A DNA stretch of 64,000 nt. It comes from Myxococcales bacterium (GTDB lineage Bacteria; Myxococcota; Myxococcia; Myxococcales; Myxococcaceae). The DNA lies in the NCBI GenBank assembly GCA_016191815.1, contig JACPVI010000006.1:62001-126000 (forward strand), in the 5' to 3' direction. Shown here in pieces: positions 13,450 to 22,080 of the stretch. Position numbers and translations under genes: made by a program. The first letter of the stretch is position 1; each line of letters opens with the position of its first letter. The notes beneath the pieces are model-generated. The model did not search any database, had not been told where the DNA came from, and saw nothing but the letters and a program-made list of their open reading frames with translations.

Positions 13450-15726
13450 TCACGGGCACTGCCCGAAGACGTCGCACGCCGCGCCGTTGTTGCAGAACCG
13501 GCCGTTGCAGCACCGCTGGTTGGGAGCGCCGCAGGGCCGGCAGGTGTAGGCGTAGCAGACGTAGCCCGCCCCGCAGTTGCCCTCGGGCGCGTACTCGTCG
13601 CAGCAAGGCTGGTTGTCGCCGCCGCAGGCCACGCAGGAGTTGCCCGACTCGAGCGCGTAGGGCCCGGTGCAGTTGAGCGAGCCGCCGCACTCGTTCTGCC
13701 CCACCGAGCCGCAGCCTCCGTCGGAGCAGCTGCCGTTCTTGCAGGGCCCTCCGCCCGAGGGGCAGAGCCCGTTGTTGGCGGTGCAGGTGCCCGAGGTGCA
13801 GCACCCTCCGTTCGCGCACAGGTTCCCCAGGCAGCAGGCCTGGCCAGGGCCACCGCAGGCCACGCACTGGTTGCTGTTGTTGCACACCAGCCCGGACGCG
13901 GTGCAGAAGTCTCGCTGGTAGGTGGCGGTGGAGGGGCAGCACGGCTCTGTGAGGCCGCCGCAGCTTCCGCAGCTCGAAGTCGTCCCACTGCAGGCGCCCA
14001 ACGCCGGGTAGCTGTAGGTCTGGCCTCCGCACCCCGCATCCGGCACCACGCAGCGCTGCCCGGCGCAGCAGCCGCCGTCGCACGAGCTGTTCTGACAGCA
14101 CGACTGCCCCGCCCCTCCGCAGGCGACGAAGTTGCCCGTGAGGCACACCACGCCTCCGTCCGAGCCGTACTGGCCGCTCGCCACGCAGCGGTTGGTGCCC
14201 AGGTCGGCGCAGGCGCCGGAGCGGCAAGCAAGCCCCGCCGTGCACACCGGTTGGCTGGGCAGGCCGCAGGGCACGCAACGGTTGTTGCCGTCGCAAGCGA
14301 GGCTGGGGTCGGTGCACTGGCTCCCGGCGCAGCAGGCCTGATTTCTCCCGCCGCAGCCGGCGCACACCAAGGTGGACAGGCAGAGGTCGCCGGCGAAGCA
14401 CTGGCCCCCGACCGCCCGGCACTGGGGAATCCCCGGCGTGTTGTCGCAGCAGCCCTGGCTGCACGAGTTGCCCGCACAGCACGGCTGCCCCGGAAGGCCG
14501 CAGGCCAGGCAGTACGAGCCGGCGCAGGTGGAACCCGAGCTGCACGCGCCGCCCGAACAGCACGGCTCTCCCGGCGCGCCGCACTTGACGCACTGGTTCC
14601 CGAAACAGGAACTGGAGGGCGCCGAGCAGGTGCCGGTGTATTGCTGCACGCAGCAGGGTTGGCCCAGCTCCCCGCAGGCGCGGCAAAGCTGGGTCTGGGT
14701 ATCGCAGACCTGGCCGCTGGCGGTGCACAGGTTTCCGCTGCAGCAGGGCTGGCCGGACCCGCCGCAGGAGCCTCCTCCGCAGGAGCCGTTACTACAAATA
14801 CCGCCCGCGCCCTGACAGGTGGTGCCCTGGCTGATGCACTGGTTCGACACGCAGCAGCCTCCGCCGCTGCACGCGTTCCCTCCGCAGCACGGCTGCCCCG
14901 GACCTCCGCACACCGCGCACACCCCCACGCCCGCGCCGGAGCATACCAAGGTGGCGCCACAGGAGCGCCCCGGGCAGCAGGCCTGTCCTGCCGAGCCGCA
15001 GCCCTGGCAGATGCCGCCCACGCAGGAGTTGCCCGCGTTGGAGCAGACATTCCCGGGACAACAGGGCTGGCCCGGGCCGCCGCAGCTAAGGCAGCTGCCT
15101 CCCACGCAGGCGGTGCCGGACGCCGAGCAGGAGCTGCCGGCGCAGCACGGCTGGCCCTGCCCGCCACAGGCTTGGCAGTTGCCCCCTTGGCAGGCAGTGC
15201 CGGACGCGGTGCAGACGTCGCCCGCGCAGCAGGGCTGGCCTTGCCCGCCGCACCCTCCGCAGCTTCCGTTGCTGCAGGTGCCCGCGGTGGCGCCGCAGCT
15301 CGCGCCCGAGGCGATGCAGCTCCCTCCCACGCAGCAGCCGCCCGAGGAGCAGGCGTTGCCTGCGCAGCACACTTGCCCCGTGCTGCCGCAGCTCGACGCC
15401 TGGCAGGTGCCGGCCTGGCAGCTGGCGCCGGTGGCGCAGGCGTTGTTCGCGCAGCAAGGCTGGCCCGCGCTGCCGCAGCTCGTCGCCTGGCAGCTTCCGG
15501 AGACGCAGCTCGCCCCCGCGGTGCAGGCGTTGTTGCCGCAGCAAGGCTGGCCCGCGCTGCCGCAGCTGAATGCCTGGCAGGTTCCTCCCGCGCAGAGGGT
15601 TCCTGCCGCGCAGGAATCACCCGCGCAGCAGGCTTTGCCGAGCACGCCGCAATCGGCGGGCTTGGGAGGCGGGCAGCCCGCAAGAAGCGCGGCCGCGAAC
15701 AGCGACACGACGAGCGATTGGCGCAT
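13450..15726 (-). CDS. giant cysteine-rich modular lipoprotein
   Basis: The 758-residue precursor has a clear lipoprotein signal (FAAALLAGC). The rest is built almost entirely from about 20 modules of roughly 30-40 residues with the pattern 'CGxxGQPCCxGxxCxxGxxCxxGxCQ'. Cysteine makes up close to a fifth of some stretches. The protein would be a chain of small disulfide-linked knots on the outer membrane or surface. Modules near the N-terminus are nearly identical at DNA level (recurrent GCAGCACGGCTGGCC blocks), indicating recent duplication; later ones diverge and are spaced by longer inserts. No function is assigned. It is convergent with the preceding repeat protein. Confidence 0.85.
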   Translation of the reverse strand: MRQSLVVSLFAAALLAGCPPPKPADCGVLGKACCAGDSCAAGTLCAGGTCQAFSCGSAGQPCCGNNACTAGASCVSGSCQATSCGSAGQPCCANNACATGASCQAGTCQASSCGSTGQVCCAGNACSSGGCCVGGSCIASGASCGATAGTCSNGSCGGCGGQGQPCCAGDVCTASGTACQGGNCQACGGQGQPCCAGSSCSASGTACVGGSCLSCGGPGQPCCPGNVCSNAGNSCVGGICQGCGSAGQACCPGRSCGATLVCSGAGVGVCAVCGGPGQPCCGGNACSGGGCCVSNQCISQGTTCQGAGGICSNGSCGGGSCGGSGQPCCSGNLCTASGQVCDTQTQLCRACGELGQPCCVQQYTGTCSAPSSSCFGNQCVKCGAPGEPCCSGGACSSGSTCAGSYCLACGLPGQPCCAGNSCSQGCCDNTPGIPQCRAVGGQCFAGDLCLSTLVCAGCGGRNQACCAGSQCTDPSLACDGNNRCVPCGLPSQPVCTAGLACRSGACADLGTNRCVASGQYGSDGGVVCLTGNFVACGGAGQSCCQNSSCDGGCCAGQRCVVPDAGCGGQTYSYPALGACSGTTSSCGSCGGLTEPCCPSTATYQRDFCTASGLVCNNSNQCVACGGPGQACCLGNLCANGGCCTSGTCTANNGLCPSGGGPCKNGSCSDGGCGSVGQNECGGSLNCTGPYALESGNSCVACGGDNQPCCDEYAPEGNCGAGYVCYAYTCRPCGAPNQRCCNGRFCNNGAACDVFGQCP

Positions 15727-15921: not shown

Positions 15922-18015
15922 ATGCCCAGCATTCGCCGGATGGGGGAGCAGTTCGCCGCCGACCGGGCCATCACCGTCGATGAGGCGAAGGCTCTGGTGG
16001 AGAAGGCGAAGTCCAACGGTGTCGTCTCCGGCTGGGAGAAGGCGCAGCTTCGGAACATCGTCCGCAAGTACGCGGACGTCTTCCAGCCCGGCGCGCTGGA
16101 CGTGCTCAAGCCGCTCATCGACACCCAGCCACCGCCCCCGCCGCCCGCGGCGACCGAGGTGACAAACCTCAACCCCTCGGGCTCGCACCGGCCGATCTTC
16201 CTCGGCAGCAACGGCGTCTTCACCTCCAGCGCGAACGGGGCGCCGCCGAGGGACGACGTGGAGCGGGGCGACGCGATGTTCCGCGCCGCCGAGCTGGTGG
16301 ACGACTCGAAGGACAACGTGCTCTCGCGGGTGCCGCAACAGACCCGGGCGGCGGCGTTCGAGCAGCTAAAGCTCACCCTCTCGCGCGTGCCTTCGGGCGG
16401 ACAGCCGCCGGAGGGACTGAATCCGCAGCAGGCGCTCCAGATGCGCGCCTCGACCGCCACGGTGCTGTTGCACCTCATCGAGGCCAGCCCCGAGCCCGAG
16501 CTTCGGGGGCAGATGGCGAAGACGTACGAGGGAATGGTGAAGGCGGAGACAGACCCGCGGCTCCGGGAGAACCTGATCTTCCACCTCGCCAACTCTCCCG
16601 CGGCGCAGACCGGTGAGGTGAAGGCGATCGCCGACGTGCTGATGAAGGAGCTGGCCCCCACCACTCCGCCCTACGAGAAGTGGTTCGCCAACGGCAACAA
16701 GACGGTGAACCTCTCCTGGACGGTGGGTCAGGGCGAGTTCTGGAAGGGCTTCACCAACAACCTCAAGCAGAACGGCTTCCGAGCAGTAGGCCCGGAGAAC
16801 CAGCACGGGACCACCGTCTACGAGAAGACCACCAACAAGCCGGGAGTGGGGGAGACCACCTTCCGGATCAACGTGCGCGAGGGCGGCTCCAACATCCTCG
16901 GCCCGGTGAACGACCCCTCGGTGCACGTGGTGGGCTACGACGGCCACTCCAACTGGGGCCGGAACATGACTTCCTCGGTGCGGAACGGCCCTGAGACCCA
17001 AGACGGCGGCGACGGCAAGCTGCTCTTCTACAACCTCTGCGTGGGCAAGGGCGTGCTGGACCGGGTGAGGGAGAAGTACCCCAACCTCCAGGTGGCCACC
17101 ACCTACGCCGCCTCCAACTTCTACACCGACGGCCAGGGCCAGATGACCCGCGGCGAGGGGGTGCAGGCCCTGCTGGCGATGGTGGACGGAATCTCCGAGC
17201 GCGCCCCGTGGAGCACCATCCACCAGCGGATGAACGACGCCGCCGACATCGGCTGGGGGCGCACCTGGGACAACTACGTCACTCCCATCTCCACGCTGGT
17301 GCGGGAGAAGGTGCTGGACCGCGACCACGACGGGCAGGCGGACTACCTCGACAAGCACTTCAACTACGACACCTTCAAGGTGGCCGAGGACACCGCCCGC
17401 GAATTCACCCCGGTGCGGCAGTCGCGGCCGGCCGGGTTGCTCGACGGCACCAAGGTGCTGGTGGCCGGGAACATGATCAACACCCTCTCGGAGTTCAGCT
17501 CCATCCTCGACCGGGTGAACCCCGACTCGAAGGTGATCCCCACCGGCTGGTTCGAGCCGAAGATGGGCGAGCGCGAGGTGGTGCGCTTCACCCAAGAGCG
17601 CGGCGCCGACGGCAAGCCCGAGCTCCGCATGCAGGTGAACGCCCGCTACGCGCACATGAGCGAGGAGTCTTTGAGGGCGACCACCATCTACGAGTTCAAC
17701 CGGTACCTCTCGGGGAGCGGCCAGCTGCGGATGGACCCCGTGGACGCCAAGCTCGCCGGCCTCATCGCCTTCGCCCAGTCGCTCAGGGTGGACGAGGGCT
17801 ACCGCGACGGCGAGGTGTGGAAGAGCTTCCTCTCGCGATACAACCTCCCGCCGGACCTCTCGCTCTCCGCGGTCACCAGCCTCCTCACCGCCGAGCACCA
17901 CCACTATGCCGGCAGCCCGGAGATGGTGCAGAAGTTCAAGCAGCAGCTCTCCCCTCAAATCCTGGAGCAGCTCCGCAAGCCCGAGGTGGGCGAGCCGGTG
18001 CAGCTCATCGGCTAG
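15922..18015 (+). CDS. hypothetical protein with possible caspase-like His/Cys motifs and a calcium-binding loop
   Basis: The 697-residue protein starts at an ATG behind GGGGAGGA. There is no signal peptide. Residues 1-65 form a small helical domain, followed by a Pro-rich linker (68-76) and a helical domain (110-250). Residues 255-400 are alpha/beta: VHVVGYDGHSNWG places His342 at the end of a strand, and LLFYNLCVGKGV places Cys373 at the end of the next strand, the order seen in clan CD (caspase, clostripain) peptidases. D466-x-D468-x-D470-G-x-x-D474 resembles an EF-hand or dockerin Ca loop. The gene may encode a cysteine protease of unknown target, but this is inference. Its last 11 bases overlap the convergent YeeE gene. 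Confidence 0.7.
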   Translation: MPSIRRMGEQFAADRAITVDEAKALVEKAKSNGVVSGWEKAQLRNIVRKYADVFQPGALDVLKPLIDTQPPPPPPAATEVTNLNPSGSHRPIFLGSNGVFTSSANGAPPRDDVERGDAMFRAAELVDDSKDNVLSRVPQQTRAAAFEQLKLTLSRVPSGGQPPEGLNPQQALQMRASTATVLLHLIEASPEPELRGQMAKTYEGMVKAETDPRLRENLIFHLANSPAAQTGEVKAIADVLMKELAPTTPPYEKWFANGNKTVNLSWTVGQGEFWKGFTNNLKQNGFRAVGPENQHGTTVYEKTTNKPGVGETTFRINVREGGSNILGPVNDPSVHVVGYDGHSNWGRNMTSSVRNGPETQDGGDGKLLFYNLCVGKGVLDRVREKYPNLQVATTYAASNFYTDGQGQMTRGEGVQALLAMVDGISERAPWSTIHQRMNDAADIGWGRTWDNYVTPISTLVREKVLDRDHDGQADYLDKHFNYDTFKVAEDTAREFTPVRQSRPAGLLDGTKVLVAGNMINTLSEFSSILDRVNPDSKVIPTGWFEPKMGEREVVRFTQERGADGKPELRMQVNARYAHMSEESLRATTIYEFNRYLSGSGQLRMDPVDAKLAGLIAFAQSLRVDEGYRDGEVWKSFLSRYNLPPDLSLSAVTSLLTAEHHHYAGSPEMVQKFKQQLSPQILEQLRKPEVGEPVQLIG

Positions 18016-18991
18016 TGCTCTGCTGTGCCGCGGGCCGAGCCACCGCGTTCGCCGCCGCCACGTTCAGCGCCACCCCGAGGAAGATGGCCACCGTAGTCCC
18101 CACCGCCGCGACGCCCAGGAAGGGGGTGCCGGCCAGCGAATGGCCCACGGTGCACCCGACTGCCAGCGAGGAGCCGGCACCTAGCCCCAGGCCTCCCAAG
18201 AGCCGCTTGAGCAGCACCCCGCGAGCAGGCATGTCCAGCTTGACCTTCTTGCCCGCGGCGATCAGCGCGCCGGCCGGCACGCCCAGCGCCATCAGCGACT
18301 CCCAAAAGCGAAACCCTCCGCTATCGGCCCAGGCGAGCCGGGTGATGTCCACCGTGCCCGGCACTACCGACAGTCCGTAGCCGGTCTCGAGCAGCGCGGC
18401 CAGCCCCCAGGTCGCGCTGGAAAGCGCTCCGAGGAGCAGCCCGGTCCGCTTCCAGGTCCACTCGCCGGCAGTGGTGGTCTTCGTCCGCCACAGGAGCAAG
18501 AGACCACCGACGCCGATCGGCGCGGTGACCGCCCACAGCCACGGGCCGAGCTCCGACAGCCCGACTCCGGAGATGCCCACCCCCACCGCCTGGATCGCTC
18601 TCCGGATGGAGGCGAGCGGCCCGATCTCGAAGGCCGTGGCGCCCGCCGCCATCCCCGCCACCGCCACCAGGGCGCCCAGGCTGCCTCCGCCGGTCTTCGC
18701 CAACACCGAGGCGGCGCAGCCGCCCGCCCACCACATGGAGAAGCCGAACAGCACGCCCCCGAGCAGCACCCCGAGCGGGAAGAAGCTGGGCATGCTCAAA
18801 GGCCCAAGGAGCAGGATCGCCGGGGCGAGCGCCATCTGGAGGGCGATCGCCACCCCCAGGGCCTTCACCTTGGTCAGGTCTCGCTTTGTGACCACAAAGC
18901 GGAAGCCGGAGTTGAGTCAGAAGGCTCCGCGATGCGCGATGTAGCCGTAGGCGGCTCCCACGGCGAGGCCGGCTAGCGCGACGATTGCCAT
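18005..18991 (-). CDS. YeeE/YedE-family sulfur transporter with in-frame UGA (candidate selenoprotein)
   Basis: From the ATG at 18991 (behind AGGGAG) the frame runs 24 codons to a TGA at 18917-18919 and then stays open to 18005, giving 328 residues if UGA is read. The joined protein is a normal YeeE/YedE (TsuA-type) thiosulfate or sulfur-compound transporter. Its N-terminus MAIVALAGLAVG...IAHRGAF is followed by the UGA, then LNSGFRF, matching the family motif 'RGxFCxxxxFR' in which UGA occupies the Cys. The other family cysteines are present (WWAGGC92 and AVGC280TVGH), as are many transmembrane helices. A SECIS-like hairpin follows 15 bases after the UGA. Annotation that ignores this would start at the GTG at 18895 and lose the first helix. 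The alternative is a nonsense mutation. Confidence 0.8.
18882..18901 (-). promoter_or_regulatory. candidate bacterial SECIS hairpin
   Basis: Reading the minus strand, CGCTTTGTG and CACAAAGCG are adjacent perfect complements. In practice this gives at least a seven-pair stem (CGCTTTG/CAAAGCG) with the loop UGGUCA. It starts 15 bases after the UGA, so the apical loop is about 22 bases downstream, within the range of known bacterial SECIS elements, and the loop carries GGU as in E. coli fdhF. The stem needs the codons TTT and ACA, which are unusual in this GC-rich genome, suggesting selection on RNA structure. Confidence 0.7.
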
Positions 18992-19017
18992 TGAGGGTTC
19001 TCCCTGGGGGCGCCCGA

Positions 19018-19061: not shown

Positions 19062-19574
19062 CTACCGCTCCAGGTGATCGATCTCCGCCGCCGCCTTGGC
19101 GGCCTCCGGAGAGCGGCCGAAGACGAACTCCACCAGCGGTGTACCCCGGCCTTCGATCTCCTCCGCCGAGAGCTGAAGCACCGGAGTCACCAGGATGGTG
19201 GTGTCCACCTGGCCCTCGCTCACCACCGCCTTGGCCCAGGCATCGCTGGGGCGCTTGGACACCAAGGTGAGCACGCGCGAGCCCTCGTCCCCAGCCAAAG
19301 AGAGGGAGACTCCCTTCGCGCGGCCGAAGCGCTCACGGTAGAAGCGCTCCACCGCCCGGAACGAGAGGGGCAGCCGGTAGCTCTTCTTGCCCTCGGCGGG
19401 CGCGAGCGGCTTGCCGTCCAGGGAGGGGATGGGAAAAGGTGCGCGAGGCTTGGCTCTTTGGGCCTCCGCGGAGGTACCCTGGGGGGGCGATGGGGCAGGG
19501 CCGTCGGGCCCGGCGGCCATCGCAGGGGCCGAAGACAGAAGGAGCAACGCGAGTAGACCGTTCGTTCGCAGCAT
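19062..19574 (-). CDS. exported hypothetical protein
   Basis: The 170-residue protein has a clear Sec signal peptide (LLALLLLSSAPAMA-A). A Pro-rich stretch of about 35 residues follows, then one small alpha/beta domain including SYRLPLSFRAVERFYRERFG, RVLTLVSKRPSDAW and TTILVTPVLQL. No family was recognised. It is divergent from the Memo-family gene, with only 24 bases between start codons. It probably acts in the periplasm. Confidence 0.75.
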   Translation of the reverse strand: MLRTNGLLALLLLSSAPAMAAGPDGPAPSPPQGTSAEAQRAKPRAPFPIPSLDGKPLAPAEGKKSYRLPLSFRAVERFYRERFGRAKGVSLSLAGDEGSRVLTLVSKRPSDAWAKAVVSEGQVDTTILVTPVLQLSAEEIEGRGTPLVEFVFGRSPEAAKAAAEIDHLER

Positions 19575-19598: not shown

Positions 19599-20405
19599 AT
19601 GACCGCCGTTCGGCCTCCAGCCGTAGCCGGGACATTCTACCCCGGCGAGCCGTCGCGCTTGGCGGCGCTGGTGGAGGAGCTGACCTTTGCCGCCGGCCCA
19701 CCGAGAGATGGCCCGCTGCGGGCGCTCATCGTCCCGCACGCCGGCTACCTGTACTCCGGGCCGGTGGCCGCCACCGCCTATGCGCAACTTCGGCCGCACA
19801 CCAGCCGCTTCCGCCGGGTGGTGCTGCTCGGGCCCTCACACTTCGTGCCGGTTCGCGGGTTCGCGCTTCCCGAAGCGGAGGCGCTCTCCACTCCGCTGGG
19901 GACGGTGCCGATAGATGGAGAAGGCGCCTCCACCGCCGCGCGCTTCCAGGAGGTGGCGGTGAGCGCTCCCGCCCACGCGAGGGAGCACTCCCTGGAGGTC
20001 CAGATGCCCTTCCTCCAGCGACTGTTGCCGAGCTTCTCCTGCTTGCCGCTGGCGGTGGGCCGCGCCGAGCCGGAGTTGGTGGCGGACGTGCTCGAGGCCC
20101 TCTGGGGGGGAGGCGACACCCTGGTGCTGATCAGCACCGACCTCTCGCACTACCTGCCCTACGAGGAGGCGAAGCGGGTGGATTTGGGCACCGCGGGGCG
20201 AATCCTCCGCCTGGAGGCGACCGTCTCGCCCGAGGAGGCCTGTGGGGCCGCGCCGCTCAACGGGCTGTTGTTGGCGGCGCGCCGGCTCGGGCTCAAACCT
20301 TCGCAGCTCGATCTCAGGAGCTCCGGCGACACCGCGGGCGACCGCCGGCAGGTGGTCGGCTACGGCGCCTTCGCCCTCTACGAGCCCCGAGGAGGCGCAC
20401 CATGA
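19599..20405 (+). CDS. amrB: AmmeMemoRadiSam system protein B (MEMO1 family)
   Basis: This 268-residue member of the Memo family has the landmark residues AVAGTFYPG, the metal-site His in IVPHAGYLYSGPVAATAY, LGPSHFVP, then EHSLEVQMPFLQ and LISTDLSHY. Memo proteins share a fold with extradiol dioxygenases. Their bacterial role is unknown, but they co-occur with AMMECR1 and a radical SAM enzyme exactly as here. The stop overlaps the next gene (ATGA). Confidence 0.95.
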   Translation: MTAVRPPAVAGTFYPGEPSRLAALVEELTFAAGPPRDGPLRALIVPHAGYLYSGPVAATAYAQLRPHTSRFRRVVLLGPSHFVPVRGFALPEAEALSTPLGTVPIDGEGASTAARFQEVAVSAPAHAREHSLEVQMPFLQRLLPSFSCLPLAVGRAEPELVADVLEALWGGGDTLVLISTDLSHYLPYEEAKRVDLGTAGRILRLEATVSPEEACGAAPLNGLLLAARRLGLKPSQLDLRSSGDTAGDRRQVVGYGAFALYEPRGGAP

Positions 20406-21013
20406 GCACCGCCACAGCCGCCGAGCCATCCCCTCGCGGCTGGCCGACCGAGAAAGGGCCGCTGCTCCTCGCGTTGGCCAGGGCCTCGCTCGCCCACTCG
20501 CTCGGGGGGCCGTCGTTCGACCCGCCGGACGTGGGCTGGCTCGGGGAGCCAGGCGCCTGCTTCGTCACCCTCACCCAGGAAGGGACGCTGCGGGGCTGCA
20601 TCGGGAGCATCGAGGCGCGCAGGCCGCTCAGGGAAGACGTGCTGGAGAACGCCCGGGGGGCGGCCTTCCACGACCCTCGGTTTCCGCCCTTGCTCGCGGT
20701 CGAGCTGCCGCAGACGCGCATCGAGGTGTCGCTGCTCTCGCCGCTGGAGCAGCTTACGGTGGAGAGCGAGGAGGAGGCGCTGCGGAAGCTCCGGCCCGGC
20801 ATCGATGGCGTCTTCCTGGAGTGGGGATTCCGCCGCGGGGTGTTCATCCCCCAGATGTGGCAGAAGCTTCCCGACCCCAAGCGCTTCCTCGAGTGTCTCA
20901 AGGAGAAGGCGGGCCTTCCCCTTTTGGCCTGGCTGCCGGGGACGAAGGTCTCCCGGTTCACCGCCCAGTGCTGGGAGGAGCCCGAGCCGAGCGAGGAGGG
21001 AGCCAGGGCGTGA
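20402..21013 (+). CDS. amrA: AmmeMemoRadiSam system protein A (AMMECR1 domain)
   Basis: The 203-residue AMMECR1-domain protein contains the conserved core FVTLTQEGTLRGCIGSIEARRPL, then FHDPRFPPL, SLLSPLEQL and VFLEWGFRRGVFIPQMW. The Cys of RGCIGS is the family's invariant cysteine. It overlaps its neighbours by four bases on both sides (ATGA and GTGA), which points to tightly coupled synthesis of all three proteins. Confidence 0.95.
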   Translation: MSTATAAEPSPRGWPTEKGPLLLALARASLAHSLGGPSFDPPDVGWLGEPGACFVTLTQEGTLRGCIGSIEARRPLREDVLENARGAAFHDPRFPPLLAVELPQTRIEVSLLSPLEQLTVESEEEALRKLRPGIDGVFLEWGFRRGVFIPQMWQKLPDPKRFLECLKEKAGLPLLAWLPGTKVSRFTAQCWEEPEPSEEGARA

Positions 21014-22080
21014 GGGAGGGCGCTCGAGCCCGCTACTGGCAAAAGCTAGAAGACGGCCGCATCCAGTGCGACCTCTGCCCGCGCGAGTGCAAGCTCCACG
21101 ACGGGCAGCGGGCTTTCTGCTTCGTCCGCCAGCGGGTGGGCGAGGAGCTGCGGCTCACCACGCACGGGCGCTCGTCGGGCTTCTGCGTGGACCCGATCGA
21201 GAAGAAGCCGTTGAACCAGTTCTTCCCCGGCTCGAGCGTGCTCTCGTTCGGGACGGCGGGCTGCAACCTGGGGTGCCGCTTCTGCCAGAACTGGGACATC
21301 TCCAAGGCGCGGGAGAACGACGCCCTGGCGGACGCGGCCTCGCCGGAGGAGATCGCCTCCCGAGCCGCGGAGCTGGGCTGCAAGAGCGTCGCTTTCACCT
21401 ACAACGATCCGGTGGTGTTCCTGGAATACGCGCTGGAGGTGGCGCAGGCGTGCCGGGAGCGCGGGGTGAAGACGGTGGCGGTCACGGCGGGGTACATCCA
21501 CGAACAGCCGCGGCGGGAGCTGTTCGGGAAGATGGACGCGGCCAACGTGGACCTCAAGGCGTTCACCGATCATTTCTACCGGAGGTTGGCCTTCGCCTCG
21601 CTCGCCCCGGTGCTGGAGACGCTCGAGTACGTGGCGAGGGAGACCAAGGTGTGGATGGAGATCACCACCCTGCTCATTCCCGGCCTAAACGACTCGGACG
21701 AGGAGGTGACGAAGCTCTCCGAGTGGCTGGTGGAGCACGTGGGGGCGGAGGTGCCGCTGCACCTGAGCGCCTTCCACCCGGCGTTCAAGCTTTTGGAGGT
21801 GCCGCCGACTCCGCCGGCCACCCTGCGCCGGGCGCGGGAGCTGGCGCGGAGGGCTGGGCTTCGCTTCGTCTACACCGGGAACGTCCACGACGCCGAGGGA
21901 GACACCACCTTTTGCCCGAGCTGCACATCGGTGCTCATCCGCCGCGACTGGTACGAGCTGTTGGCCTACCAGCTCACGGCCGACGGTCGCTGTCCCGACT
22001 GCGGAGTCCGGGTTCCCGGCCACTACGACCCGGCGCCGGGCAGGTTCGGGCGGAGGCGCATTCCGCTCTCGTTCACCTGA
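21010..22080 (+). CDS. amrS: AmmeMemoRadiSam system radical SAM enzyme
   Basis: The 356-residue protein starts at a GTG overlapping the previous stop. It has an N-terminal Cys motif (CDLCPREC), the radical SAM cluster motif CNLGCRFCQNW, EITTLLIPGLND, and two C-terminal CxxC pairs (CPSC, CPDC), as in AmrS. It is related to pyruvate formate-lyase activating enzymes and presumably generates a 5'-deoxyadenosyl radical, but its substrate is unknown. The three-gene set is complete here. Confidence 0.95.
   Translation: MREGARARYWQKLEDGRIQCDLCPRECKLHDGQRAFCFVRQRVGEELRLTTHGRSSGFCVDPIEKKPLNQFFPGSSVLSFGTAGCNLGCRFCQNWDISKARENDALADAASPEEIASRAAELGCKSVAFTYNDPVVFLEYALEVAQACRERGVKTVAVTAGYIHEQPRRELFGKMDAANVDLKAFTDHFYRRLAFASLAPVLETLEYVARETKVWMEITTLLIPGLNDSDEEVTKLSEWLVEHVGAEVPLHLSAFHPAFKLLEVPPTPPATLRRARELARRAGLRFVYTGNVHDAEGDTTFCPSCTSVLIRRDWYELLAYQLTADGRCPDCGVRVPGHYDPAPGRFGRRRIPLSFT

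Follow-up and report, generated by a model that had tools for sequence, protein, structure and literature searches.

Transport by YeeE-type proteins is proposed to be a relay of thiosulfate along three cysteines. In StTsuA (YeeE) of Spirochaeta thermophila, Cys293, Cys91 and Cys22 form a stack that spans the membrane, with Cys22 at the cytoplasmic mouth, where it faces the active cysteine of the TusA-like acceptor YeeD (TsuB) (PMC11073785); the residues reported as indispensable are Cys91 and Cys293, not Cys22 (PMC11582611). YedE (TIGR04112), of the same superfamily, has been linked with selenium users (PMC5322559). A selenocysteine (Sec)-containing YeeE/YedE protein (PF04143; WP_012471001.1, motif GUxSG) is already listed among the predicted selenoproteins of bacteria (PMC13188914, PMC9312934), which answers the initial annotation of the locus described here, in which it was left uncertain whether a Sec form of this family had been reported; the published one apparently carries Sec at another of the cysteines.

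The window, i.e. the whole analysed stretch of 64,000 nucleotides of Myxococcales DNA, contains on its minus strand a candidate gene for a Sec-containing YeeE/TsuA-like (PF04143) transporter (18005–18991; 328 residues plus stop). The frame was read again from the ATG at 18991 through 24 codons, an in-frame TGA as codon 25 (18917–18919), 303 sense codons and the terminal TGA (18007–18005), and the coordinates, codon counts and position of the TGA given by the initial annotation were all borne out. The codons past the UGA are intact with a GC3 of 0.90. The terminal stop is also UGA, so this codon serves as a stop as well; it is followed by only a 5-bp stem with no GG loop. A Shine-Dalgarno-like AGGGAGA was found by inspection 5' of the ATG (18992–19009, minus strand). 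The letters of a TTGACC-17-TGTACT promoter had also been claimed, but these are not called by a consensus scan and are uninformative. Upstream on the same strand lies a gene (19065–19523) whose small product is predicted to be secreted and matches no Pfam family; the two genes may be co-transcribed. Standard annotation would truncate the transporter gene or call it a pseudogene.

The surrounding genes were also inspected. The transporter gene overlaps a convergent plus-strand gene (15922–18015) by 11 bases at the 3' ends (18005–18015). An AmmeMemoRadiSam trio (Memo, AMMECR1 and a radical SAM protein; 19599–22077, plus strand) is encoded divergently from yeeE and the gene for the small secreted protein. 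A large Cys-rich repetitive secreted protein, with repeats like CGGxGQPCC and no Pfam match, is encoded at 13450–15726 (minus strand).

With Cys placed at the UGA, the translated protein matched PF04143 (Sulf_transp) over residues 21–308 with 144 bits against a gathering threshold of 27. The best NCBIfam model was the Spirochaeta-type TsuA, at 103.9 bits against an equivalog cut-off of 400; the scores for the two TsuA equivalogs NF052577 and NF041049 were 103.9/400 and 62.4/645 bits, and the protein is thus a TsuA-like relative that is not filed as a TsuA equivalog. When searched against the PDB with phmmer it matched only StTsuA (6LEO, 6LEP, 8J4C, 8K1R), and in that alignment the UGA codon stands opposite Cys22 in the motif RG-x-[FI]-C-x-NS-x-FR, in keeping with the initial placement of the UGA at the Cys of RGxFCxxxxFR. 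An AlphaFold model (pLDDT 84, pTM 0.83), in which residues 2–22 form transmembrane helix 1, had 8K1R and 6LEO as its best PDB matches (TM 0.85). The TsuA/YeeE fold and the three in-line pathway positions (C22, C91 and C293 of StTsuA) are all present. The first pathway cysteine, Cys280 in a GCTVGH motif (18152–18154, minus strand), corresponds to StTsuA Cys293; the second, Cys92 in a GGC motif (18714–18724, minus strand), corresponds to StTsuA Cys91, where some Desulfobacterota have a predicted Sec; codon 25 maps to the third, Cys22 at the cytoplasmic exit. The initial annotation had asked whether homologues carry Cys at the UGA column, and Cys was found there in all correctly framed homologues covering it (two wrong-strand sequences, L100 and L091, and L101, which lacks its N-terminus, were left out of this tally), with at least 90% conservation of position 25 in alignment A4. 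The in-frame UGA accordingly falls in a column of homologue cysteines. In the tree the window protein pairs with L064, a Gemmatimonadetes homologue discussed below (support 89/91). This pair is sister to the Cys form L123 and the Sec91 form L090, and lies inside the starred clade that holds StTsuA (99/95).

A selenoprotein of this kind might move selenium compounds, like the candidate selenium transporter YedE, and not thiosulfate or sulfane sulfur. The reported link of YedE with selenium users fits this, as does the lack of any other PF04143 gene in a profile search of the organism's own genome. The YedE selenium families TIGR04112 and NF033796 scored far below their cut-offs (24.4/200 and 49.2/350 bits), however; the top-scoring model is the StTsuA-type TsuA, itself short of its cut-off (104/400 bits), the protein groups with StTsuA in the tree, and no selenium gene adjoins. 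Transport of selenium compounds was considered unlikely, and the TsuA/YeeE-type reading, with thiosulfate or related sulfane-sulfur species as the substrate, was retained. No adjoining or fused YeeD/TsuB gene (TusA fold, CPxP) was found next to the transporter gene; two TusA-like genes are present on other contigs of the genome, only one of them with CPxP (RCPLPII).

In models of bacterial SECIS elements, the hairpin lies 16–37 nt past the UGA and has G or GU in its apical loop; the SECIS of Escherichia coli fdhF also has a GGUC loop. A SECIS-like hairpin was located at 18882–18901 (minus strand). After the UGA and 15 nt, CGCUUUGU-GGUC-ACAAAGCG forms a perfect 8-bp Watson-Crick stem, the GGUC loop of which starts approximately 23–24 nt past the UGA; the hairpin of the initial annotation, CGCUUUG-UGGUCA-CAAAGCG at 15 nt, is present and extends to these 8 pairs. 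As a control, 3697 codon offsets in seven neighbouring genes were screened, and none had a Watson-Crick stem of 8 bp at this spacing. Synonymous recoding of the window peptide gave an equal stem in 4.5–6% of cases (4.5% with a GGU loop), the latter frequency arising because RFVVTKR is palindrome-prone. Since recoding yields an equal stem in about 5%, the hairpin taken alone is suggestive, not proof. The same test weakens the use of the TTT and ACA codons as proof of a SECIS constraint: both are indeed rare here (5 of 133 Phe and 8 of 209 Thr codons), as had been claimed, but they are not required, as TTC and ACG would also pair. No bacterial SECIS match was obtained from Rfam at the hairpin. 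The folding energy of the whole SECIS region was not significant (z −0.87), and the argument for a SECIS therefore rests on stem geometry, loop and conservation.

The genome of the organism is a 6.77 Mb draft in 89 contigs. It was found to encode selB (334 bits, over the cut-off), selA (570 bits), selC (tRNA-Sec, 77.9 bits; anticodon UCA by ARAGORN) and selD (363 bits), and the Sec pathway is thus complete. The search for these four genes had been proposed initially, with absence of selB and selC as a ground for dropping the idea. The selD gene (G000:C6:22128–23057; L128) itself contains one in-frame TGA (Sec-SelD, CAG-U-AAK), from which at least one other, classic selenoprotein is predicted in this genome. 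Just left of the window, at G000:C2:59754–61754, lies a formate dehydrogenase alpha subunit gene (770 bits, over the curated cut-off), which lacks an in-frame UGA despite the organism's ability to make Sec.

Approximately 85,000 genomes (genome_contigs) were scanned with a degenerate DNA pattern combining UGA at the Sec22 motif with the downstream GGC motif. One of the 24 loci returned was a real homologue and 23 were chance matches; the same pattern gave two matches in viral_contigs, both by chance. No relative of the window protein was returned when viral_contigs and genome_contigs were scanned with protein queries, or by tblastn on plasmids; the sequence diverges too far for short peptide patterns to work. 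The homologue (L064/L124) comes from the metagenome-assembled Gemmatimonadetes bacterium ARS67 (NYZA01000018.1) and is 35% identical to the window protein. Its UGA occupies the very column of the window UGA (CRF-U-LNSGFRD), with conserved residues on both sides, and the ARS67 genome encodes selB (359 bits). The hairpin of L064, CCUCCU-GGUC-AGGAGG, has its loop at +26 nt past the UGA, one codon further than in the window, and only 0.19% of synonymous recodings of its peptide gave an equal stem with a GGU loop. The two putative SECIS elements have the GGUC loop in common at nearly the same position and their stem bases are unrelated, so that the predicted RNA structure, not the sequence, is what has been kept. 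A homologue with UGA in another lineage is thereby on record; the window gene and that of ARS67 are the only two Sec22-type YeeE genes known, with only 2 Gemmatimonadetes genomes in the whole-genome set.

The gene directly 3' of the transporter gene in ARS67 lies at L124:4874–6637 (minus strand) and encodes a fusion of Rhodanese, DsbD_TM and thioredoxin domains that begins with a putative signal peptide. Its rhodanese loop contains two in-frame TGAs (FY-U-AGFT-U-VRS), which makes the fusion a candidate double selenoprotein. The fusion and transporter genes likely form an operon, and for the ARS67 copy of the transporter this neighbour points to a sulfane-sulfur context. Of the 6.8 Mb Myxococcales genome, about 1.7 Mb was searched for a rhodanese-DsbD partner, and only an ordinary DsbD-thioredoxin gene was found there.

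The second lineage bears on three further explanations, each of which was rejected mainly because its UGA has a hairpin of its own. The TGA could have arisen from TGC or TGT through an error of sequencing or assembly, or through a recent nonsense mutation that left a pseudogene, with the hairpin a coincidence. TGC and TGA differ by one base, the genome is a single draft of 89 contigs, and the conditional chance of the hairpin is the 4.5–6% given above; against this stand the 303 intact codons with their GC3, the Sec machinery, and the occurrence in a second phylum of UGA in that column together with a separate hairpin. As that second genome independently has UGA there with its own SECIS-like hairpin, the sequences make an error very unlikely as the cause of the TGA, and a nonsense mutation was likewise given very little credence. 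Near-cognate or programmed readthrough by Trp, Arg or Cys with no Sec insertion was also weighed, since in bacteria a C after UGA makes the stop leaky and the base after this UGA is C. It was given even less credence, as in two lineages the UGA coincides exactly with a conserved Cys, and both have bacterial-type SECIS-like hairpins and encode SelB, and as the organism's own selD also has a UGA. Least credible of all is a start at the GTG at 18895, which opens an ORF in the program-made list and would leave the first 24 codons untranslated, since the resulting 296-residue protein would lack transmembrane helix 1 (residues 2–22 in the model) and the third pathway residue, and the motif AYGYxAxRxxF, shared with L064, is conserved across the UGA.

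Sec at the second pathway cysteine was then compared with the exit position. By motif mapping only, the published GUxSG would be the second pathway cysteine (GGC-x-SG, StTsuA Cys91). Among the YeeE matches flagged with one stop inside, the genuine cases were two Desulfobacterota genes. One (G353; L119) has UGA at the Cys91 site in AGG-U-GSG, an exact fit to the mapped GGUxSG motif, with a SECIS-like hairpin having a 9-bp stem. The other (G396; L122:3360–4343, minus strand), which is TsuA-like and closely related to the window protein, has UGA at the Cys91 site (AKG-U-ATS), Cys at the Cys22 site and a SECIS-like hairpin (CUGGUCUCG/CGGGACCGG). Of three such matches inspected more closely, two were set aside. 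In G061, from the same order as the window genome, two adjacent half-genes carry Cys at the UGA column and the TGA that had been counted falls outside the conserved part of the coding sequence; in G333 the TGA comes after the end of the half-gene. The predicted Sec sites thus differ by lineage: mid-channel (Cys91) in some Desulfobacterota, and the exit (Cys22) in the window lineage and one Gemmatimonadetes bacterium.

Taken together, the window gene is a well-supported candidate selenoprotein on sequence grounds and very probably reads its internal UGA as selenocysteine. The initial proposal of Sec25 by UGA/Cys exchange gained support from the sel genes, the Cys homologues and the second UGA genome; the transport chemistry attached to it is still inferential. 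The overall reading, held with high confidence, is that the gene encodes a TsuA/YeeE-type transporter of thiosulfate or related sulfane-sulfur species and that its UGA25 would be decoded as Sec by SelB and tRNA-Sec under the direction of the GGUC hairpin just downstream. Judging from the model (TM 0.85 to StTsuA), Sec25 would stand at the cytoplasmic mouth in place of the third pathway cysteine. A selenolate is ionised at neutral pH and is both a better nucleophile and a better leaving group. Placed at the exit, it would make it easier to capture sulfane sulfur and pass it rapidly to a TusA-like acceptor, and this last step might be faster or more selective for sulfane sulfur. Because Cys22 of StTsuA is not among the residues reported as indispensable, any functional gain from Sec at this position is hypothetical.

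It is further suggested, tentatively and as less likely than its opposite, that the family has placed Sec at different points of the relay by lineage and that the exit form passes sulfur to an acceptor through a covalent Se-S intermediate. If so, evolution would have tuned individual steps of one sulfur relay, and the exit-site selenenyl-sulfide would be a covalent relay as against the hydrogen-bonded passage proposed for StTsuA. Natural Sec at single relay positions could serve as a ready-made probe of the covalency of each contact. Sec at the exit cysteine would mark that residue as a reactive site, beyond a lining of the channel. Predicted integral-membrane selenoproteins are few, and one of them would thereby gain a second Sec position that is apparently undescribed.

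The locus compares with the known systems as follows. Sec at the third, cytoplasmic-exit cysteine appears to be undescribed so far, no description of Sec at the Cys22 site having been found in the literature searched, the coverage of which was partial. The window gene is not categorically new; it has a different Sec position in a family already known for a predicted selenoprotein. YedE, the putative selenium transporter (TIGR04112, NF033796), is of the same superfamily but of a different subfamily. The ARS67 gene has the UGA column, the GGUC hairpin and a genomic selB in common with the window gene, from which it differs in its 35% identity and in lying immediately upstream of the rhodanese-DsbD-thioredoxin fusion gene. 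The published Sec YeeE/YedE (WP_012471001.1) is likewise a PF04143 protein with Sec predicted for a pathway Cys, by motif at the Cys91 site, whereas in the window protein that site is Cys and Sec is predicted at the Cys22 site (FULNSGFR). StTsuA (6LEO/8K1R) shares with the window protein its fold, approximately 30% identity, a common clade and the three in-line pathway cysteine positions; it differs in having Cys22 as the third pathway residue, where the window protein would have Sec, and the window locus differs from the StTsuA system in having no adjacent YeeD/TsuB gene.
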